Below are positions 1-10,063 of a DNA stretch of 19,016 nt, piece by piece. The notes under the pieces were generated by a model. The model did not search any database. It was not told where the DNA came from and saw only the letters and a program-made list of their open reading frames with translations. This stretch comes from Verrucomicrobia bacterium TMED56. GTDB taxonomy: Bacteria > Verrucomicrobiota > Verrucomicrobiia > Opitutales > Seribacteraceae. The stretch covers positions 2,333 through 21,348 of the forward strand of contig NHDJ01000127.1 in NCBI GenBank assembly GCA_002167265.1, written 5' to 3'. The translations under genes were made by a program, and so were the position numbers. Each line of letters opens with the position of its first letter. Position 1 is the stretch's first letter.

Positions 1-819
1 AATGCTATGGATTCGATGAAGGCGAATACCTTGTTTACCAATGTTGCATTGACCGAAGACGGGGATGTCTGGTGGGAAGGATTAACCGAAGAGTCTCCAT
101 CTAAACTCACCGATTGGCAGGGAAATGAATGGACTTCTAATTCTTCGACGCCAGCCGCACATCCAAATGCCAGATTCACGGCTCCTGCATCTCAGTGTCC
201 AACAATTGATCCTGAATGGGAAAACCCCCAAGGAGTTCCAGTGGCTGCATTTATTTTTGGTGGTCGAAGGATGTCTGATATACCTTTGGTTTATCAGTCA
301 TTTAATTGGAACCATGGAGTGTATCTTGGTGCCACTTTATCTTCAGAGACAACAGCTGCGGCTGAAGGTGCACAGGGCAACCTGCGTCGTGACCCTATGG
401 CGATGCTTCCCTTTTGTGGGTATAACATGGGAAATTATTTCAGACATTGGATAAAGATGGGTAAAACCTTAAAGGAAAAACCAAGAATTTTTCATGTTAA
501 TTGGTTCAGGAAAGATGCTAAAGGTAAATTCATGTGGCCAGGGTTTCGGGATAATATGAGGGTTCTCCGCTGGATTGTCGAAAGATCTACAGGAAAGGGT
601 CGTGCTCATGAAGGGCCTCTCGGTTGGATACCCAATAAAGCAGATCTGGACTGGTCAGGTATGGACTTTAGTGAAGCGGATTGGAATGAACTTATGTATA
701 CAGACAAGGAAAGTTTGAGAATGCAGACTTTAAGGCATGAGGAACTGTTCCTTCAGTTATCAGAATTTCTTCCCAAGGAGATGCTGTTTGAACGGGAACT
801 ATTGGTTTCGAGACTTTAA
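1..819 (+). CDS. pckG: Phosphoenolpyruvate carboxykinase (GTP), C-terminal part, 5' truncated by window
   Basis: Converts oxaloacetate plus GTP to PEP, GDP and CO2 in the cytoplasm (gluconeogenesis and anaplerosis balance). The reading frame is open to base 1, so the N-terminal half, including the kinase-1a (P-loop) motif, lies outside the window. The visible 272 residues match the C-terminal half of the GTP class. They include a [16 protein letters not shown] stretch, the [18 protein letters not shown] segment, [20 protein letters not shown], and FHVNWFRKD followed by [14 protein letters not shown], which forms the guanine-nucleotide pocket. The full enzyme is usually about 600 residues. The stop codon TAA overlaps the stop of the convergent ctaG by 4 bp. 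No terminator hairpin was seen. The GTP class is clear from these motifs; the ATP class (PckA) has a different sequence. Confidence 0.96.
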
Positions 820-1625
820 GCAGGCTTTGATGTTTCCTGGGACTGGGTTGACCATCGGTAAAAGATGGACGAGAGCACCCCTACCGAGACGGCCATATTG
901 GCTAGTTTCATAAGCACTCCTCCACTCTTTTGGTCCTCCAGAGGACTCAAGTCGATTATTCTTTCTGCATAAAAATAGGTGTCATATAGAACATCTTTGG
1001 AGAATGTCAGAATTGCAAATATAGGAGTTTGTCCTAGCATAAGTGCAAGTATATAAAGCATTTGTGGGCCAAAGCGTAAAGGGGGAACTCTCTTTGATGG
1101 TCCACAGACTGGCCACCACATAGCAATTGAACAAAAATACATGGACAGGTGTTCTGCCATGTGGATAGACTTGTCTCGAATTGCAGCCTCATAGAATTGT
1201 CCTATGTGCCAAAATGAAAATACAAGAGTAAAAAGTAGACCCGCGATGATTGGATGAAAGAAAAATTTTGCGGTAATTTCTAGAAAAGGTTGTTTCTCAA
1301 AAATTTTGTCGACCAGTTGTTCTGGCAGAGAAAGAAGAAAAAACAGCGGACAAGTGTACATAAGGATATTGTGCTGTATCATGTGCGCAGAGAAGAGAAA
1401 GTTTTCACCCAATGCATCAAGTGGCGAACCTACGGCCAGATAAAAGGTAATCACTGAAAGTGCGAACCAATAACCATACTTACGATTGAAGGGTAGGGAC
1501 GGACACAACAGGGTTCTGTAGGGACCGATTAAAATTGTGTAACCCCACGACAAAAGAAGTAATCCGCCAATGAGGGCGGGTTCAGTATGCCAATGACTAA
1601 AATTAACAGGGGAATTCACAACCAC
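816..1625 (-). CDS. ctaG: Cytochrome c oxidase assembly factor CtaG (Caa3_CtaG family)
   Basis: Polytopic membrane protein of 269 residues, last gene of the oxidase operon. The family is needed for formation of active caa3 oxidase in Bacillus; its mechanism, presumably copper delivery or CuB assembly, is less certain. Family signatures are the paired histidines in [11 protein letters not shown] (His81, His85), a second pair in HMAEHLSMY (His155, His159), and a Trp-Trp at 170-171, all within or next to hydrophobic segments. About seven membrane spans are suggested (roughly 17-36, 52-68, 83-100, 122-140, 157-173, 188-206 and 238-257). The start is GTG; nearby ATGs are out of frame. The gap to ctaF is 35 bp. 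It is unrelated to the Cox11 protein that is also called CtaG in proteobacteria. Confidence 0.9.
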
Positions 1626-1660: not shown

Positions 1661-2341
1661 CTAATTATTTTCTACCCAGAAGGCTTCGGACCTAACCTTA
1701 ATTCTGAAATCTTCAGTGGCTCCAACTTGCTCGAGCAAAGCAGTCCTGTTACCTTCTACATTATTTTGAGGCGATGGGGAGTACAGATGATAAAAGGGAT
1801 TTTCAGGTTTTTTTGAATTGATTTCGATTAAATCCGCAGTGCTGATTTTCCAAGAAATCATGTGGGGTACACCATCTACTGAATTCCATGAATCCATGGT
1901 CCAGTTGCTGTCTGAAGTGTGATCAGACTTAGCTATATAAAACTTGTCATTTATGGATACATAGTCACCTGATTTATAATTAGTATCTGGTTTCCAATCA
2001 TTTTTTATTTGGGAAACTTCAAACTTTTCTACAACAGGATGTTCGTCAGCCATGTAGATTACGGCGAAATAAGTTCCCAATGCAATCACTAGCCCCATTA
2101 GAAATAATATTGTGTTGAGTATTTTATCCCATCTTAGATGCATAAACCACCAAATCACACCGATAAATTTCAGTACTGAAGTGGCAAACAACACGCCAAT
2201 GATGGTAGAGCCTTCGAACGACTGTACATAAATGATGACAATTTCTAGTCCAGTGATCGCTACAAGGATCATGGATAAATTAAAAAAAGTGAAGAAGCGC
2301 TTACTTTCTTCTGCTACTGGATCTTCAGAGTGACCGCTCAT
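1661..2341 (-). CDS. ctaF: Cytochrome c oxidase subunit IV (COX4_pro) with C-terminal CBM5/12-like extension
   Basis: The first ~100 residues form the small three-span subunit IV of bacterial haem-copper oxidases: spans about 18-40, 46-67 and 76-97, with the family pattern VLKFIGVIWWFMHLRWD. Prokaryotic subunit IV is normally about 100 residues; this protein has 226. With the N-terminus inside and three spans, the extra ~125 residues should lie in the periplasm. Residues 116-153 have the spacing of a type 5/12 carbohydrate-binding module: W116, Y122, G125-D126-V128, F134-Y135-A137, H141-T142, W147 and W152 (pattern W..tnY..GDyVsi..kfY.A..dHTs....W). The segment beyond 155 (ISWKISTADLIEIN... 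to the end) is not recognised. There is no frame break at the junction, so this is a genuine continuous ORF. It lies 33 bp after ctaE and 35 bp before ctaG. Subunit IV assignment is firm; the module assignment is a pattern match by eye. Confidence 0.85.
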   Translation of the reverse strand: MSGHSEDPVAEESKRFFTFFNLSMILVAITGLEIVIIYVQSFEGSTIIGVLFATSVLKFIGVIWWFMHLRWDKILNTILFLMGLVIALGTYFAVIYMADEHPVVEKFEVSQIKNDWKPDTNYKSGDYVSINDKFYIAKSDHTSDSNWTMDSWNSVDGVPHMISWKISTADLIEINSKKPENPFYHLYSPSPQNNVEGNRTALLEQVGATEDFRIKVRSEAFWVENN

Positions 2342-2374: not shown

Positions 2375-3022
2375 TTAAAATGCATATTCCATAAGGTAGA
2401 CTACGGGAAAAATGATAATCCATACGATATCAACAAAGTGCCAATATAATCCGCAGCATTCAATATCCATAGCATGTGCAGTGCTCATTTTTCCAGTGAA
2501 TGAATATACCAACCATCCAATTAACCAAAAAACACCAATTGCCACATGGGTACCATGAGTACCGGTAAGCACATAAAATGTCGAACCAAATACATGTGGT
2601 TCGCCTTTGTATGTAGAAAGTGTTAGTTCGTTTCCGGGAGCATGTACGAAGTGAGTGAATTCATAAACCTGACATGCTAAAAATATTGCCCCGAAAATGA
2701 TTGTACCAAAAAGCATCCATCTTGTACTTTTCAAGTTTCCCTTATGAATAGCTGAAACAGCAAGAGCCATAAATAGGGAACTGGCCAGCAGAATAAAAGT
2801 ACTGAAAGATGTTAATTCGATATCGAACACATCTCTAATATCAAGAAAATTTCCGCCTACGGTGGGGGAAATTTTTCTGTAGATTAAATGAGTTGAAATA
2901 AGGGTACCGAAAAACATGCAGTCAGAACCAAGAAAAGCCCACATCAGGACTTTTTTGTTATGAATACCAGTGCTCGTTACTGGTTCGTGGTGATCAAGAG
3001 AATGTACTGATGCTTCACTCAT
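2375..3022 (-). CDS. ctaE: Cytochrome c oxidase subunit III
   Basis: Integral membrane subunit III of the caa3-type oxidase, 215 residues. It supports stability and proton uptake into the D-channel and carries no redox centre. Five membrane spans are visible (about 26-46, 70-92, 103-121, 146-173 and 190-212). Family motifs include LGSDCMFFGTL near the first span, FYVLTGTHGTHV (149-160) and GLYWHFVDIVWI.IFPVVYL at the C-terminus. Classical proteobacterial subunit III has seven spans. The five-span form fits Bacillus-type caa3 enzymes, in which two spans are carried at the C-terminus of subunit I, as appears to be the case here. The gene lies 42 bp after ctaD and 33 bp before ctaF, in the same operon. 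Confidence 0.95.
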   Translation of the reverse strand: MSEASVHSLDHHEPVTSTGIHNKKVLMWAFLGSDCMFFGTLISTHLIYRKISPTVGGNFLDIRDVFDIELTSFSTFILLASSLFMALAVSAIHKGNLKSTRWMLFGTIIFGAIFLACQVYEFTHFVHAPGNELTLSTYKGEPHVFGSTFYVLTGTHGTHVAIGVFWLIGWLVYSFTGKMSTAHAMDIECCGLYWHFVDIVWIIIFPVVYLMEYAF

Positions 3023-3064: not shown

Positions 3065-5008
3065 CTATTCTTCGTTTTCTTTTGGGAAAAGATGATAGCC
3101 GCCTGGACCTTCCAATGACCACATAATCATTCCAGTAATAGAGATTATACCACCTACAATGGCAACTGTGTAATCTCTTACGAGTTCGCCTGTAGAATCT
3201 ATTGAAGCATGAAAGAGCATCCCTAGAACTAATATAAAGAGACCGAAAGCAGTAAGTAATGGATACCAGGAACGGTCGGGCATGTGGACACCATGATCAT
3301 CAAGAGGTTCCTTTTGAGAATGATTATCTTTGGGACCGTAGTTGTTCTCCCAAGCCTGATCCCTGGATTTGATTATTGGATTGCGTGCGAAATTATACTC
3401 CCGGACGGGTGATGAAAGTGTCCATTCCAGAGTCCTGGCGTCCCAGGGATTTTTACCAGCAGGTTTTAACTTTTTGTTAAAGAAAGCGTTGATGAATTGA
3501 ATAATACCTATTGCAATACCAACTCCTAAGATTACTGAACCAATGGTTGCAATTTGATTCCATGTTTCAAACCCATGACCCTCATTGTAACTATGCGTTC
3601 TGCGGGGTTGGCCAATCATTCCCAGATAATGCATCGGGAAGAAAGTAAGATTAAAACCAATAAACATTAAAGTGAATACAAACTTTCCAAGATTTTCGCT
3701 AAGCATTCTACCAGTCATTTTAGGCAACCAGTAATAAAATCCGCAAAAAAGACCAAACAGAGCACCCCCAATTAAAACATAGTGAAAGTGAGCAACAACA
3801 AAGTACGAATCTTGATGTTGAGCATCAATGGGTACAGAAGAATGCATGATACCTGTAAATCCACCTATCATAAACATTGTGATAAATCCTAAAGCAAAAA
3901 GCATAGGAGTATCAAAACGAATCCTCCCTCCCCACATGGTACCAATCCAGTTGAATATTTTAACGCCTGTCGGAATGGCGATTAACATGGTTAAAATCGA
4001 AAAAGCAGAAGTTGCGACAACTCCCATTCCCGTGGTGAACATATGGTGGCTCCAAACTGCAAACCCCATGAATCCAATAATTGCACCGGAAAAAATGACA
4101 AGTCCATATCCGAAGAGTGGTTTTCTTGAAAATACAGGAATAACTTCAGAAACAATTCCCATGGCCGGGAGTATAAGAATGTAAACTTCAGGATGACCAA
4201 AAATCCAAAACAAATGTTGCCAAAGATGGGGCTTCCCTCCCTCCAGAAAGTCATAAAAATTGGTACCATAAGTGCGATCAAACATTAATTCTACAAGAGC
4301 AATCGTGATAGCGGGGAATGCCAAGATGATCAGGAAACTAACAATCAAAGTCATCCAAGTGAAAACCGGCATTCTCATCATAGTCATGCCGGGGGCTCTC
4401 ATGTTAATGATAGTTGTAATGAAGTTGAAAGATGCAAGCAGGCTTGCAAGTCCCAATATTTGGAGTGCAAATATCCAAAAGTCTGGTCCCATATCACCGA
4501 CTACTTCAGCAAAGCGGGTATCAGTAAGGGGGGCATATCCAAACCAACCTATGGCAGGAGATCCACCAGTGAAAAACCAACTTAGATTTAAGATTAACCC
4601 GCCGGCAACGAAGCACCACAATGAAAGAGCATTCATTCTAGGGAAAGCTACATCCCTTGCTCCAATTTGAAGTGGCATAAAGAAGTTAAAAAAAGCAGCA
4701 CTCAGAGGCATAATAACAAGAAAGACCATAGTGGTTCCATGCATCGTAAACATTTGGTTGTACTGACGATTAGTAAGCACTTCCATGTTGTGACTCCAGA
4801 GTTGTGACCGAATAAGTAGGGCTTCGATACCTCCAACCAGAAGAAAAAATAACGCGGTAAGACCATACATTAATCCTATTTTCTTGTGATCGATAGTAGT
4901 GAGCCAATCAATAATTCCTGAAGTATGCTGTCCAGGTCGAGGGAAGACCTTGGTCTCAAGCTTGGTTTCCGTATCGGGTGCCGCGTATTTTATGGATTCA
5001 GTTGCCAT
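3065..5008 (-). CDS. ctaD: Cytochrome c oxidase subunit I (A1-type haem-copper oxidase)
   Basis: Catalytic subunit that reduces O2 and pumps protons. All ligands are visible: His90 and His409 for low-spin haem a, His407 for haem a3, and His272, His321 and His322 for CuB. Tyr276 of GHPEVY is the tyrosine that cross-links to a CuB histidine. Glu274 in the same motif marks the A1 subfamily. Proton-channel residues are present: Asp119 and Asn126 (D-channel entrance, IGARDVAFPRMN) and Lys350 of IPTGVKIF (K-channel). At 647 residues it is about 100 longer than mitochondrial-type subunit I. After the usual 12 spans there is a hydrophilic stretch (about 513-582) and two further spans (about 583-603 and 612-631), as in 14-span Bacillus caa3 subunit I. 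It lies 24 bp after ctaC. Confidence 0.98.
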   Translation of the reverse strand: MATESIKYAAPDTETKLETKVFPRPGQHTSGIIDWLTTIDHKKIGLMYGLTALFFLLVGGIEALLIRSQLWSHNMEVLTNRQYNQMFTMHGTTMVFLVIMPLSAAFFNFFMPLQIGARDVAFPRMNALSLWCFVAGGLILNLSWFFTGGSPAIGWFGYAPLTDTRFAEVVGDMGPDFWIFALQILGLASLLASFNFITTIINMRAPGMTMMRMPVFTWMTLIVSFLIILAFPAITIALVELMFDRTYGTNFYDFLEGGKPHLWQHLFWIFGHPEVYILILPAMGIVSEVIPVFSRKPLFGYGLVIFSGAIIGFMGFAVWSHHMFTTGMGVVATSAFSILTMLIAIPTGVKIFNWIGTMWGGRIRFDTPMLFALGFITMFMIGGFTGIMHSSVPIDAQHQDSYFVVAHFHYVLIGGALFGLFCGFYYWLPKMTGRMLSENLGKFVFTLMFIGFNLTFFPMHYLGMIGQPRRTHSYNEGHGFETWNQIATIGSVILGVGIAIGIIQFINAFFNKKLKPAGKNPWDARTLEWTLSSPVREYNFARNPIIKSRDQAWENNYGPKDNHSQKEPLDDHGVHMPDRSWYPLLTAFGLFILVLGMLFHASIDSTGELVRDYTVAIVGGIISITGMIMWSLEGPGGYHLFPKENEE

Positions 5009-5032: not shown

Positions 5033-6460
5033 TTACTTTAGACCGAGCAGGTAAGAAACCAACTGTTCAACCTTCTCGTCATCATTTTCCAATTGCCTTA
5101 AAGGATGCCGATCATCAATACCCTCGCCATTCCACATTAGATTTCCAAATTTAACTTCGTTTGAATTACGGAGCCATTTATCTAAACTTTCCTCATCGTT
5201 CCTCATCCAACCGGCAGCAAGAGAGGTGCGGATCCCGAAAAGTGTGAGGTTAGGACCTTTAGCACCTAAACCAGTTCGGTTGATAGCGTGGCACTGGACG
5301 CATTGAAGAGAAGAAAATAAATATTTACCTTTTTCGTAGTCATCTGAATGTACTTTTTCCCATAGTTTGGGTTGAACATCAGGAGTTTGACCTTTAGCAA
5401 CATTTTTAGTTGCACGAAACTCACGTGTTGAGTTTTCACCAAGTGAAGAGTCAGGAAAATTGACAATGCTTCCTTTGGAATATTTGGATTCAGGAGAGTA
5501 AGATTTGGGTTGTAGATTTGGGTTTTGAGCGTTTCTAAATTTTAAAACCCATTTATCAAAATCATCATCAGTTTGTGCTAGTGCCCTGAAAGACATGTAG
5601 GCATGAGAATTACCACAATATTCAGCACATTGACCGTAAAATAGACCTCCTACAGCTTCGAATTCATCAGTAAAAGCTTGTTTTGCAAAAATAGTCTCCC
5701 TCATTTTTCCGTCAAAAACAGATGGCATGGCAATTTCAGCATCAACATTGTAAGGGTTACCATCGGGATCTAAACCAGATCGAATTTTTTCTTCATTTGC
5801 AATAAACCATAAGAAATTTTCCTGACCAGGCATTAAATCCATTTTGCCTGCTAATTTGGGCAACCAGAAGGAATGGATAACATCTTCAGTGCGAAGATTA
5901 ACCCGAACAGCTTTGCTCGCCGGGAAGACTAATTCATTTGCTGTGACAATTCCATATTGAGGATATTCAAAAACCCAGAAGAATCTTTTACCAGTAACAT
6001 TAACTGTAATTGCATCCTCAATTGCACTTTTGTCCAACTTAAGCTTTTCGAGAGTTTTCTGATCGTTGGGATCCGGAACCCTATTCATTAAAACAACACC
6101 TTGAAGAGTTGGCACTGCAAGAATAATCAGAATAACGGCTGATGCTAATATTAAAGTTGTTTCAACTTTAGAATTTCCGTGCATTTGGTCTGGAACTTCC
6201 ATTGCCTCTTTTCTGGATTTTGCCCGGTATTTCCACAAAACGAATAAAAGACATCCTCCCACCGCACAAAACAAGAAAATAGTAATCCACACAGAAAGCA
6301 TGAAAATGTCGTATTGATTCTGTGCAACTAGACCTTTTGGATCAAGTGCAGACTGCTTGTGGTCGACTCTCGAGCAAGAACTGGTGAGGGAAAATAAAAG
6401 GGAAAATAAAGAAAAGAAAATCTTGCAAGAAAAACAATGTGATAAAGTTTTGGTTATCAT
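5033..6460 (-). CDS. ctaC: Cytochrome c oxidase subunit II fused to cytochrome c (caa3 type), lipoprotein
   Basis: Electron-entry subunit. An N-terminal signal ends in a lipobox-like LTSSC with Cys29 as probable lipidation site. Two membrane spans follow (about 50-75 and 100-124), then a periplasmic CuA domain and a C-terminal class I cytochrome c domain. CuA ligands are His196 (VIHSFWLP), Cys278, Cys282, His286 and Met289 in GQCAEYCGNSHAYM; Glu280 is the usual bridging-carbonyl position. The haem motif is C387-V-Q-C-H391, with Met442 (FGNLMW) as likely axial ligand. Oddity: LWF (217-219) is followed by about 56 residues before GQC, where about a dozen is normal. An insertion of roughly 45 residues therefore sits in the CuA domain. 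It contains a D-x-D-G-N acidic loop at 231-235. The gene begins 6 bp after ctaB without a Shine-Dalgarno. Confidence 0.95.
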   Translation of the reverse strand: MITKTLSHCFSCKIFFSLFSLLFSLTSSCSRVDHKQSALDPKGLVAQNQYDIFMLSVWITIFLFCAVGGCLLFVLWKYRAKSRKEAMEVPDQMHGNSKVETTLILASAVILIILAVPTLQGVVLMNRVPDPNDQKTLEKLKLDKSAIEDAITVNVTGKRFFWVFEYPQYGIVTANELVFPASKAVRVNLRTEDVIHSFWLPKLAGKMDLMPGQENFLWFIANEEKIRSGLDPDGNPYNVDAEIAMPSVFDGKMRETIFAKQAFTDEFEAVGGLFYGQCAEYCGNSHAYMSFRALAQTDDDFDKWVLKFRNAQNPNLQPKSYSPESKYSKGSIVNFPDSSLGENSTREFRATKNVAKGQTPDVQPKLWEKVHSDDYEKGKYLFSSLQCVQCHAINRTGLGAKGPNLTLFGIRTSLAAGWMRNDEESLDKWLRNSNEVKFGNLMWNGEGIDDRHPLRQLENDDEKVEQLVSYLLGLK

Positions 6461-6466
6461 AACTGG

Positions 6467-7417
6467 TTATAGATAGCGATCAATGACTAGGGATGCTAAA
6501 AGTAAGGGTAAATAGATAATTGTTACAAAGAAAAGTTTTTTGGAGTTTTGGTCACGATCTTTTTTACTCAGAAATTTGAGCGAGGCATTGAGAAGGTAGA
6601 CTGATAGAAGAGTAGCAGAAGCAAGGTAGAAAATTTGAGGGCGGGATTGATTGAGAGGCAGGAAAAAGGGAGCGAAAACAAAAGTGGTGAGCACGATGGA
6701 GTAGAAGAAGCTTTTCAATCCAATCTTTCTTCCGGAAGAATCATTTGAGTGGTGAAACTGAAATCCACCTTTGGTATAATCTCGGCGATGATTCCAAGCA
6801 ATTGCCATAAAATGAGGAAGTTGCCAAGAGAACAAGATTCCAAAAAGAATTATACCATACATCGTGGGAGCACCGGCAGCCACCACCCATCCTATTAGGG
6901 GAGGCAAAGCACCTGCAATCGCCCCAATTTCAATTGCGATAGGCGAAACCTTTTTGAGGGGTGTGTAAATGGCTAAGTATATAAATAAAGTTGAAAAAGT
7001 AAGTAATGTAGCCCAGGGATTGGTCCAAGTCCACAATATCGCAAGCCCGGCTGTACAGAGGAATGCACCGAAACATAAAGCTAATTCAGGCGAAACAAGT
7101 TTAGCGGGCAAAGGACGGGATGCAGTTCTCGACATAAGTGCATCTTCCTTTCGCTCCATCCATTGATTCAATGCCGCAGCTCCTCCAGCTGCAAATGCAG
7201 TTCCGATAGTAAGAGCAAGAAAAAGAGAAAAATCCGACTTGAGAGGATCATGCACTAGAAAACCAAGTGATGCCGTGAAAACTGAAAGTAAACTGAGCCT
7301 AGGTTTAGTAAGTTCGTATAACCCTCGAATACTAAAAGGTTTAGCATCTTCCAGAATGGAGGAAGGTGATGGTTTTGAAAAGATATCTTTAGTAAGGTTC
7401 ACGAGGGTAACATACAT
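6467..7417 (-). CDS. ctaB: Protoheme IX farnesyltransferase (heme O synthase)
   Basis: Polyprenyltransferase of the UbiA superfamily. It attaches farnesyl to the haem B vinyl group, giving haem O, the precursor of haem A for the oxidase encoded downstream. It has 316 residues and about nine hydrophobic spans. The first aspartate-rich site is visible as N84....(R)..D92...RT..RPLP (Asn84, Asp92, Arg97, Arg101). The second region reads SWQLPHFMAIAWNHRRDYTKGGF, with Asp in RRDY. KPRLS at 38-42 is the usual start of the core, so the N-terminal ~30 residues are an extension typical of this enzyme. It is the first gene of the minus-strand operon. A perfect dyad abuts its start codon. No haem A synthase (CtaA) gene is seen in the window. 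Confidence 0.96.
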   Translation of the reverse strand: MYVTLVNLTKDIFSKPSPSSILEDAKPFSIRGLYELTKPRLSLLSVFTASLGFLVHDPLKSDFSLFLALTIGTAFAAGGAAALNQWMERKEDALMSRTASRPLPAKLVSPELALCFGAFLCTAGLAILWTWTNPWATLLTFSTLFIYLAIYTPLKKVSPIAIEIGAIAGALPPLIGWVVAAGAPTMYGIILFGILFSWQLPHFMAIAWNHRRDYTKGGFQFHHSNDSSGRKIGLKSFFYSIVLTTFVFAPFFLPLNQSRPQIFYLASATLLSVYLLNASLKFLSKKDRDQNSKKLFFVTIIYLPLLLASLVIDRYL

Positions 7418-7600: not shown

Positions 7601-8530
7601 GTGACATATTTCAAATCATCAACTGCCTGTTATTTACTTCTGATTTTCTTAACATCATGCTCTGACAAAACTTCGAAAAGTTCCCAAAAAGGTCTTTTGG
7701 ACGATGAAGTAAGGGCCGAAATTGTGTCAATAGACTCAAATTCAAGTATTGTTGCTTTCAAAGTAACCGCCTCAGGTAGTGCACTTGACAAATTTTCCAA
7801 TATCGAGAATGGCAGTGAAATTGAAGCGGAGGCTCATCCCGGAGATTTAAGTTTGTTGGAAAATAAGAGGATTTTCAAAGGTCGATTGCAATCGACTTTT
7901 AGTCCCCAAAATGGGGAAATATTCCTGCTTCACAGTGTTTGGCCTGATGATTTCAGAGAAAGAATTCGGTTTAACAATGTGAATCGACTTCTAAGAAGAG
8001 ACACATTATCCCTAGGAGAAGATTCAATAAAAACAATTGGGGACCAAGTCCCCCCATTTGCACTTTATGATCAGGATGGGCTTATTATAACAACCGATTA
8101 CTTTGATGGATCTGTTACAATTGTGAATTTTATTTTTACCCGATGCTCTGAACCAGAGATGTGCCCTGCCGCAACCATGAAAATGAAAAAATTGCAGGCA
8201 CTGGTTGAGCAAACCAAAATTCCATTTGTAAAATTCTTATCAATCACTTTAGATCCCAAATTCGACACCCCGGGGGTTTTGAAATCTTACGCAAGAGGAT
8301 ATGGTTTGAACGAATCCAACTTCCGTCTGGGAACTGCCGGAAAAACTGTAATTGACGACCTCACCCGACAATTTGGAATACTTAGGAAAAAAGAACCAAG
8401 CGTGCCCCTTGATCACACCATGAGAACCATCGTGATAAACTCGAAGCGACAAATAATTTATCAAGTGCCCGGAAAAGGTTGGTCAGTTGATGATTTTCTC
8501 AGCAGGTTACAAGGACAGCAATCAATTTAG
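7601..8530 (+). CDS. SCO1/SenC/PrrC-family copper chaperone, lipoprotein, with extra N-terminal domain
   Basis: Thioredoxin-fold protein of the SCO family, which delivers copper to or reduces the CuA site of oxidase subunit II. A lipoprotein signal ends at LTSC (Cys20). Residues ~36-135 form an unrecognised, beta-rich-looking segment. The SCO domain occupies ~145-305: PPFALYDQDG, then IVNFIFTRC, the second cysteine before P, SITLDPKFDTP, and His272 in PLDHTMR, the third copper ligand. The cysteines are Cys182 and Cys188, spaced C-x5-C; the classical motif is C-x3-C. The start is GTG at 7601. The only nearby upstream ATG (7595) runs straight into TGA. The gene is divergent from ctaB and begins the accessory operon, 23 bp before the HLHP protein. 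Family assignment is firm; the N-terminal domain is unassigned. Confidence 0.9.
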   Translation: MTYFKSSTACYLLLIFLTSCSDKTSKSSQKGLLDDEVRAEIVSIDSNSSIVAFKVTASGSALDKFSNIENGSEIEAEAHPGDLSLLENKRIFKGRLQSTFSPQNGEIFLLHSVWPDDFRERIRFNNVNRLLRRDTLSLGEDSIKTIGDQVPPFALYDQDGLIITTDYFDGSVTIVNFIFTRCSEPEMCPAATMKMKKLQALVEQTKIPFVKFLSITLDPKFDTPGVLKSYARGYGLNESNFRLGTAGKTVIDDLTRQFGILRKKEPSVPLDHTMRTIVINSKRQIIYQVPGKGWSVDDFLSRLQGQQSI

Positions 8531-8553: not shown

Positions 8554-9474
8554 ATGACCCGGAAGAAAAAATCTCTTTTGTTGTTTATCCCTTTTGTGGT
8601 GATTTATTTTATAGCTCGTTCTTTGCCAGTTGAACCTTGTGAATTTCTCCACGAGGAAACCTACAACGAAGAAGGCGTGCTTGACTATTGCGGTCCGGGT
8701 GATTCTGGATTTGTAGATTTAACCACCCGAAAATGGCCATTGAAAATGGACTTACGGGCACTTGGAGGACTTGAACCTAATAAAGCATGTGAATTCGAAA
8801 TTAATTTGAAGGAATTTGACGGATCACCACTGGCCGCTGATGAGGTCGCTTTAAGTCATACTCAGAAGATTCATTTGCTTGCTATAGACTCGACTTTGCA
8901 AGATTACCAGCATTTGCATCCAGAACCTGATAGTTTATTTGATGGAATTTGGAGATTTAAAATTACCCCTAAGTATTCAGGTGAGTACAAAATATTTTTG
9001 GATTTGATTCCAATTCGCAGTCCAAGAAGGATATTATTATCTGGCTCCTTTTCAGTGGATGGACCTGATCGTGGTGTTCAGGATAAAACTCACTCTACTC
9101 AAGTTTCTGTTGGAAGTCGCAAATTTGCAGTTGAAATAGAGCCCAATGAATTTTCGGATGAGGTAATTTTAACATTCAAAGCCCGAGATGAACTGGGTTC
9201 TCCCTTACTACTTCGCCCAGTCATGGGTGCCCATGCCCACATGGTTGCTTTTGACTGGGAAAGAAAAGGCTTTGCTCATTTACATCCTTTGGAGACTGAG
9301 GATTTAACTGGACCAGCAGTTCGACCAAGTAGCAATGATTTGCAATTTTCGTTTAATTCATCCGAGATTGAGCAATGTCGATTGTGGGTTCAGGTCTTGC
9401 TCGAAGAGGATGAGTTTGAAACTTTCATTCCTTTTAATTTAGATTTCAGAGAGTTGCCTCATGAAACAAATTGA
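8554..9474 (+). CDS. Membrane-anchored periplasmic protein with two His-rich HLHP repeats (unknown function)
   Basis: 306 residues. A basic N-terminus and one hydrophobic span (8-22) suggest a signal anchor, with the rest in the periplasm. Two beta-rich halves each carry the same signature. The first has H107-LLAID-...-H120-LH122-P. The second has H227-A-H229-MVAFD-...-H242-LH244-P. The first half continues as F..KITPKYSGEYKIFLDLIP, as in YtkA-like/FixH-like Ig-fold modules. Two cysteines (Cys29 and Cys46) follow the anchor. The histidine arrangement suggests copper or other metal binding. Its position between an SCO chaperone and a DUF420 protein, opposite the oxidase operon, suggests a role in oxidase metal-centre assembly; this is inference. 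Its 3' end overlaps the next gene by 14 bp, implying translational coupling. No specific family name is claimed. Confidence 0.8.
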   Translation: MTRKKKSLLLFIPFVVIYFIARSLPVEPCEFLHEETYNEEGVLDYCGPGDSGFVDLTTRKWPLKMDLRALGGLEPNKACEFEINLKEFDGSPLAADEVALSHTQKIHLLAIDSTLQDYQHLHPEPDSLFDGIWRFKITPKYSGEYKIFLDLIPIRSPRRILLSGSFSVDGPDRGVQDKTHSTQVSVGSRKFAVEIEPNEFSDEVILTFKARDELGSPLLLRPVMGAHAHMVAFDWERKGFAHLHPLETEDLTGPAVRPSSNDLQFSFNSSEIEQCRLWVQVLLEEDEFETFIPFNLDFRELPHETN

Positions 9475-10063
9475 ACAAATAAAAAAACGCAAAGCAGATT
9501 CTATTCTATTAAAGCGTTTGAAAATTGCAGTGTGGATTATTTCTGGAGTAGTTTTGGGCTTGGTCATGCTTATGCGACAGGTCAAGATTCCACTCCCGGA
9601 TTACATATCCTTGAATTTTCTTCCACCCTTCCACGCAATTCTTAATTCTCTGGCCGCAGTTTCTCTTGTTATGGCTTTGGTCGCCATTAAGAAAGGAAAC
9701 GCATTTGTTCATCAGAAATGGATTTACTGTGCGATGGCCTGTTCTTTTGTTTTTTTACTTTCCTATGTTGCGTACCATTTTACCACTCCAGAAACCATTT
9801 ACGGTGATCAAAATGGAGATGGTAAATTATCCCAACTTGAAGTTGATGAGGCTGGCGTAATGAGAAAAGTTTACCTTTCCATTTTATTGAGCCACATCGC
9901 ATTGGCTGCTCTAAGCTTGCCATTCATACTGCTCAACTTTTGCTATGGGTTTACAAATCATTTTGAAAAACATCGAAAACTTTCAAAAAAAATTTTCCCC
10001 GTCTGGCTTTATGTGGCAGTAACAGGTCCAGTGGTTTATGTATTACTAAATCCATATTATTAG
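9461..10063 (+). CDS. DUF420 / CtaM-like membrane protein with an EF-hand loop
   Basis: 200 residues and five predicted spans (about 21-38, 58-76, 86-106, 133-160 and 178-197). The DUF420 family includes Bacillus/Staphylococcus CtaM (YozB), which is needed for haem-copper oxidase activity. Family features are PPFHAILNSLAAVSLV, a conserved His84 (VHQKW), His106 after YVAYH, and His146 in ILLSHIALAALSLPFIL. Between spans 3 and 4 lies D116-Q-N-G-D120-G-K-L-S-Q-L-E127. This matches the 12-residue EF-hand loop at positions 1, 3, 5, 6, 8 and 12. The positive-inside rule puts it in the periplasm. The gene overlaps the HLHP gene by 14 bp and ends 6 bp from the convergent folA. I assign the family with good confidence, but the exact partner oxidase only from context. 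Confidence 0.85.
   Translation: MKQIEQIKKRKADSILLKRLKIAVWIISGVVLGLVMLMRQVKIPLPDYISLNFLPPFHAILNSLAAVSLVMALVAIKKGNAFVHQKWIYCAMACSFVFLLSYVAYHFTTPETIYGDQNGDGKLSQLEVDEAGVMRKVYLSILLSHIALAALSLPFILLNFCYGFTNHFEKHRKLSKKIFPVWLYVAVTGPVVYVLLNPYY

Follow-up and report, generated by a model that had tools for sequence, protein, structure and literature searches.

Oxidase operon and architecture of subunit IV

Conservation is high among terminal oxidases, whose subunit IV in bacteria is usually made of helices alone. In a 19,016-nt stretch of DNA from Verrucomicrobia bacterium TMED56 (contig NHDJ01000127.1, referred to here as the window), the gene for subunit IV of a caa3-type oxidase, ctaF, encodes a protein of 226 aa with a C-terminal extension. 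This raises the question of what the extension is, where it occurs and what it might do in a respiratory complex. A preliminary description of the locus had proposed an unbroken extended frame carrying a periplasmic domain similar to carbohydrate-binding modules of type 5/12 (CBM5/12).

The extended frame was confirmed as a single ORF of 226 aa (1661..2341). It comes fifth in a minus-strand gene cluster, ctaB-ctaC-ctaD-ctaE-ctaF-ctaG, which encodes heme o synthase (ctaB, 6467..7417; TIGR01473 above cut-off), subunit II with a CuA domain and a fused cytochrome c (ctaC, 5033..6460), subunit I (ctaD, 3065..5008), subunit III (ctaE, 2375..3022; assigned by Pfam), subunit IV, and a caa3 assembly factor (ctaG, 816..1625; Pfam Caa3_CtaG). 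Genes for SCO1/SenC (7601-8530) and DUF420 (9461-10063) lie on the plus strand, divergent from the operon. Beside them, a 306-aa protein (8554-9474, plus strand) has no Pfam match at E ≤ 1 and contains the repeated His motifs QHLHPEP, AHAHM and AHLHPLE; it may handle copper during oxidase assembly.

Residues 1-97 of CtaF (2051..2341) form the ordinary part of the subunit, as indicated by Pfam, the structure model and similarity to E. coli bo3 chain 6wti_D. Residues 25-88 match COX4_pro (PF03626) with 35.2 bits against a cut-off of 28.9 (E 1.6e-8), and helices are predicted at 8-39, 44-68 and 73-98. Members of COX4_pro are recognised by three helices and a location in an oxidase operon, both of which were found for CtaF; the NCBIfam model for caa3 subunit IV (TIGR02229) scored 18.6 bits, below its curated cut-off of 37.25. 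The extension is likely located on the periplasmic side, as the preliminary description had it, because the basic HLRWDK loop that joins the second and third of its three hydrophobic helices would place the C-terminus outside.

The extension opens with a first beta-strand (residues 98-111, 2009..2050; predicted strand 104-111), followed by a CBM5/12-fold module (residues 112-156, 1874..2008) and the remainder of a probably Ig-like beta-sandwich (residues 157-226, 1664..1873), the latter delimited by conservation, model and structure matches. In the Pfam search, CBM_5_12 (PF02839) was assigned to residues 116-150 with 31.7 bits against a curated cut-off of 26.2 (E 1.6e-7), and the extension searched by itself reached 33.0 bits (E 6e-8). 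The predicted model is ordered, with pLDDT values of 84-91 per ten-residue block from 101 to 220, and shows a compact CBM-like fold. Residues 112-156 of this model superimpose on the chitin oligosaccharide deacetylase modules 3wx7 and 4nz1 at 1.1-1.2 Å over 44 residues and on the chitinase module ChiA1 (1ed7) at 1.4 Å over 40 residues. By sequence, the nearest solved structures are likewise the deacetylase modules 3wx7, 4nz1 and 4ny2 (E ~1e-4), and the match to 1ed7 is weaker (E 0.31 and 0.047). Foldseek alone returned no match for CtaF at E ≤ 0.001. Matches to the sandwich cover residues 100-226, of which 100-111 and 157-226 make up the sandwich itself; candidate Ig-like counterparts are a SoxYZ chain (2ox5_A) and a domain of IL-17RA (4hsa_F).

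The proposed CBM5/12-like domain is thus real, and W116, Y122, G125-D126, F134-Y135, H141-T142, W147 and W152 all lie where they had been placed. The extension as a whole was described too broadly, since just about 45 of its 129 residues are module and the remainder is the host beta-sandwich. Profile matches, predicted structure and conservation establish CtaF as a lineage-specific caa3 subunit IV with a beta-sandwich after helix 3 and a CBM5/12-fold module after the first strand of that sandwich. A chance match to CBM_5_12 was rejected in view of the cut-offs, the conservation and the fold; an assembly fusion or frameshift was rejected because 35 of 45 loci, from many assemblies, have a match reaching residue 214 or beyond.

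Conservation of the extension and ligand residues

Conservation was assessed in an alignment of the window protein with 115 of the 130 proteins retrieved; those used were 205-250 aa long, and P0001 as well as proteins outside this range were excluded. A second alignment contained 38 of 53 diverse segments. Among the 116 CtaF proteins, W116 and W152 are each Trp in 115, Y122 is Tyr in 114, and position 135 is Tyr or Phe in all. COX4_pro was detected in 116/116 and CBM_5_12 in 67/116 at E ≤ 0.01, several of the scanned members remaining under the curated cut-off of PF02839. The mean information content reaches 3.80 bits in residues 25-97, 2.99 bits in 154-226 and 2.25 bits in 114-153, so that the sandwich is conserved above the module. 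Its strong motifs are PH at 159-160, IEI near 172-174 and DFR-KVRSEA near 211-220. The module is the fastest-changing of 11 parts compared.

Position 139 of CtaF, a Ser in the window protein and variable among the 116 sequences, is the counterpart of Gln679 of ChiA1, a residue with a reported role. W116, Y122, Y135 and W152 match core aromatics of ChiA1, and position 130, corresponding to Y670, is non-aromatic in the window protein. In ChiA1, W656, Y662, Y670, Y675 and W696 belong to the core and W687 is the surface ligand residue (PMC3701571). In the alignment with 1ed7, the spans are equal (query 3-35, chain 2-34); W147 therefore falls on chain position 33, which is read as W687. The aromatic at this place is mostly Phe in the family (Phe in 91, Trp in 18 and another residue in 7 of the 116 proteins). 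CBM5 modules are described as having an exposed aromatic pair (PMC8449059), and this pair has no counterpart at D140-H141 of CtaF.

Distribution of the extended subunit IV

The search for the same fusion in other genomes was informative, as the fusion is a common trait of the organism's own family within the Opitutales. A search of contigs yielded 45 loci, of which the matches of the 35 long ones reach residue 214 or beyond and those of the other 10 end at residue 102-129. The long loci come from assemblies named Opitutia, Opitutae, Opitutales or Verrucomicrobia, and isolate names suggest that many are marine. The CtaF profile finds a match in 38 of the 42 family genomes, one of which (G028) owes it to a symporter. 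This leaves 37/42 genomes, in three genera, with an extended CtaF. The genomes without it are G002, G025 and G061 (82, 63 and 51% complete) and two genomes of genus g3. For subunit I, G002 has one weaker match of 134 bits, and G025 and G061 have none. A loss of the extension in g3 was considered and rejected: its CtaC ORFs of 238-255 aa leave, by their length, no room for a fused cytochrome c and the CtaF match in G031 has 124 aa, and these genes are therefore attributed to another oxidase. Two members of one genus (G006 and G017) each carry two full-length extended CtaF matches on different contigs, which may reflect a second operon or a strain mixture.

In a sample of the order, 149 of 273 genomes match the profile. 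Outside the family, the matches listed end at or before model position 125, those past 113 run through stop codons, and those from other families stop after the third helix. In a sample of the phylum, 50 of 387 genomes match, all in the same order. The only match that continues past position 104 without a stop is that of the window's own genome, the sole family member among the 50. As the extended form occurs in one family and short forms elsewhere, the extension looks like a gain fixed in that family.

The existence of separate genes for the extension was considered and rejected. Eight proteins consisting of the extension only start shortly before, inside or after helix 3 and were therefore taken as fragments or internal starts. 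A search with the extension region only, which reaches close relatives and would miss a diverged fusion in other phyla, returned 53 proteins from 58 candidates. None was named as another kind of protein, a few being termed 'hypothetical', and on this basis an occurrence of the extension in other protein kinds was rejected as far as close relatives are concerned.

Inserts in CtaC and a probable second module

For the comparison of the neighbouring subunits, CtaC proteins of at least 360 aa were taken from 25 of the 35 long-CtaF and 8 of the 10 short-CtaF loci. The larger clade-specific inserts are located in CtaC: the long group has an insert at 131-144, two within the CuA domain at 225-231 and 241-271, ahead of CAEYCGNSHAYM at 278, and further ones at 312-333 and 341-357 between CuA and cytochrome c. 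The segment holding the second and third of these (residues 225-271) lies at 5648..5788 on the minus strand. CtaE has just two inserts of 4-5 residues each, and no insert specific to the long-CtaF group was found in CtaD in the same comparison.

Residues 318-371 of CtaC (5348..5509, minus strand), between CuA and cytochrome c, probably form a degenerate second CBM5/12-like module. They contain the module-like residues Y321, Y327, G330, F348-x-A350 and W367. One alignment covered 20 of 26 CtaC inserts (leaving out L010, L013, L025, L029, L032 and L039). Comparison of the insert with the CtaF module by hhalign gave a probability of 54.6, or 69.6-69.9 on 26 rows; after column shuffling, 0/150 comparisons reached the real score in each of two settings. 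Of 71 segments along CtaC, the best scored 24.5 and the best not overlapping 318-371 scored 11.0. The model of CtaC has pLDDT values of 92-96 per ten-residue block over 321-370, with strands at 332-336, 345-350 and 367-369. Their offsets from Y321, F348 and W367 are close to those of CtaF strands 127-130, 133-137 and 152-155 from W116, Y135 and W152. A scan of the individual members against Pfam found CBM_5_12 in 8/20 at a lax E ≤ 10 (best E 6.9e-4). The insert of the window protein itself scored 14.6 bits against PF02839, below the cut-off of 26.2, and a HMMER model of the CtaF module reached just 6.3 bits for its best domain on CtaC. Structure searches with whole CtaC returned oxidase chains, with no CBM entry among the matches listed. 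An aromatic residue at the place of ChiA1 W687 in the ligand loop is present in 0/20 inserts.

In the order sample, the CtaC module was found in 30 of 273 genomes, all within the family and none outside. The same sample contains 32 family genomes with an extended CtaF, and 30 of them also have the CtaC module; it was not found in G008 and G059, and the contig of the latter appears to begin inside ctaD (L008). All of the best 120 of 1489 CtaC homologues carry the module. A further alignment comprised the window protein, 62 of the 120 listed homologues and sequences from 10 loci; in some of these, residues upstream of the protein were left on. The extension of CtaF and the inserts of CtaC occur jointly.

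CBM5/12-like modules in other proteins

Similar stretches are found in further proteins of the family. A Na+/solute symporter, recognised by SSF matches over cut-off, carries some 50 extra, CBM5/12-like residues in one of its loops in two of seven family orthologues (L133:821-2740, plus strand, in G016; L090:702-2558, minus strand, in G028). The other five (G029, G031, G032, G034 and G061; L155-L159) show a clean empty site. In two CtaF homologues (P0024 and P0126), a different loop of the sandwich houses a near-identical second copy of the module; the long insert that P0086 carries close to this position is of another kind and scores just 3.8 bits as a second module. Flagellin-like and secreted proteins of the family show weaker CBM5/12 matches, one of them over the cut-off: a large protein with a flagellin N-terminal domain from the window's own genome (L129:1727-5278, minus strand, contig C94) scores 26.8 against 26.2 bits for PF02839. 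A second large protein with such a domain (L138:3-1682, minus strand) has a CBM5/12-like stretch. A protein that looks phage-tail-like by eye (L135:589-1362, plus strand, contig C129 of the same genome) contains a weak CBM5/12-like stretch and unknown bases. Since the module recurs as the symporter insert, as the doubled CtaF module and in the flagellin-like matches, it behaves as a plug-in.

Possible functions of the extension

The CtaF extension and the CtaC inserts may together form a periplasmic protein-contact cap around CuA and cytochrome c, in which the fold would not bind sugar; we give this reading an even chance. The sandwich and the module of CtaF would meet the CtaC inserts, namely the loop of the CuA domain and the probable module in the linker between CuA and cytochrome c, in the periplasm. 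Through protein contacts, the cap would keep the tethered cytochrome c at CuA or steer it there, or would stabilise the complex, a chitin-binding fold being reused as a scaffold and not as a sugar binder. Consistent with such a cap are the presence of the extension in 37/42 family genomes and of the CtaC module in 30 of 32 with an extended CtaF, the confinement of the larger clade-specific inserts to CtaC and CtaF with none in CtaD, the higher conservation of the sandwich (2.99 versus 2.25 bits), and the state of the ligand positions: the ligand aromatic is absent from all 20 CtaC inserts, CtaF mostly has Phe there, and the residue at the Gln679 position varies. The co-divergence of the parts is, however, unspecific. 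Given CtaD, the partial correlation over 22 sequences is 0.686 between sandwich and CtaC module and 0.559 between sandwich and the CtaG control, and the CtaF module correlates less with the CtaC module (0.228) than with CtaG (0.65, same 22 sequences). The module also changes fastest of the 11 parts, position 147 is aromatic in 109/116 proteins as in a sugar binder, and the two genomes in which the CtaC module was not found have an extended CtaF.

In an alternative, which we regard as rather unlikely, the module would be a passenger that is easily inserted in extracytoplasmic loops and tolerated without a role of its own, and the sandwich would do the work. Its variable presence in the symporter (2/7 orthologues with, 5/7 without a similar insert) and the second copy in P0024 and P0126 fit this view, as do the lowest conservation and fastest change among the parts. 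Among 13 pairs compared, three whose dS is close to 0.05 give the module a dN/dS of 0.87-1.00, and three others give no defined value; against a passenger, the seven whose dS exceeds 0.1 give 0.05-0.29. Moreover, no full-length relative lacking the module was seen, and W116 and W152 are each kept in 115/116 proteins.

That the module still binds a GlcNAc-containing glycan, either peptidoglycan strands or imported chitin oligosaccharides, and serves to fix the oxidase in place or to link it to a substrate, appears unlikely. The score of PF02839 above its curated cut-off and the fact that the nearest neighbours in sequence and fold are modules from enzymes acting on chitin would favour glycan binding, together with the aromatic residue at 147 (Phe or Trp in 109/116), which in the window protein lines up with W687, the ChiA1 ligand residue (PMC3701571), and one GH18-family match over cut-off in the genome (47.4 bits). 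Against it, the residue at 147 is Phe and not Trp in 91/116 proteins, the Gln679 position is variable, the aromatic pair of CBM5 (PMC8449059) has no counterpart at D140-H141, and none of the 20 CtaC inserts has the ligand aromatic. Finally, docking of the extension to another partner (such as an assembly protein, a bc complex or a soluble cytochrome) and not to CtaC of the same complex would agree with its probable periplasmic orientation in a respiratory complex and with the strong PH, IEI and DFR-KVRSEA motifs of the sandwich. Against it, the larger correlated inserts are found in CtaC; we regard this explanation as very improbable.

Returning to a protein-contact cap, a wider reading is put forward tentatively: in this Opitutales family, the CBM5/12 fold may be a plug-in of extracytoplasmic loops that enters unrelated proteins of the inner membrane, namely CtaF, probably CtaC, and the symporter, and in the oxidase the paired modules may act as a docking device that places the tethered cytochrome c over CuA.

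Comparison with known systems

CtaF of TMED56 shares its three helices and its place in the ctaCDEFG operon with prokaryotic COX subunit IV (COX4_pro, PF03626; E. coli bo3 6wti_D). It differs by a folded extension of 129 residues; the ORFs of 24 short relatives from the order continue for 0-27 residues beyond the match (at least two pairs of these ORFs look like the same gene). With the CBM5/12 modules of ChiA1 (1ed7) and of the deacetylases (3wx7, 4nz1), the CtaF module has the profile, the fold and most core aromatics in common. In contrast to these, it is part of a membrane respiratory subunit, is nested in a sandwich, has no counterpart of Gln679, and across its family shows mostly Phe at the W687 position. 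For CtaC, the closest known system is subunit II of the Thermus caa3 oxidase (2yev_B); CtaC of the family has inserts, one of them module-like, that are absent from the short-CtaF relatives with which it was compared.

The nearest idea to this architecture is that of the secreted cytochrome-CBM proteins of Cellvibrio (Cbp2D/E, X183), in which a cytochrome is reportedly linked with carbohydrate-binding modules. These proteins are said to be partners in polysaccharide oxidation and not subunits of a terminal oxidase. A search of the open-access literature found no report of an oxidase subunit combined with a CBM5/12 module. The parts are known, and their combination is a new form of caa3 oxidase; also newly found is the clade-specific insert of CtaC that looks like a degenerate second module.

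A family with a fixed periplasmic domain on CtaF and inserts in CtaC provides a testable case of domain addition to respiratory complexes, and the spread of such modules can be studied on the symporter, where close relatives with a similar insert can be set against others with an empty site. The locus also serves as a warning that a CBM_5_12 match in a genome annotation does not necessarily indicate polysaccharide degradation. If the plug-in and docking reading holds, a carbohydrate-binding fold would have been turned into part of the electron-transfer machine of this family.
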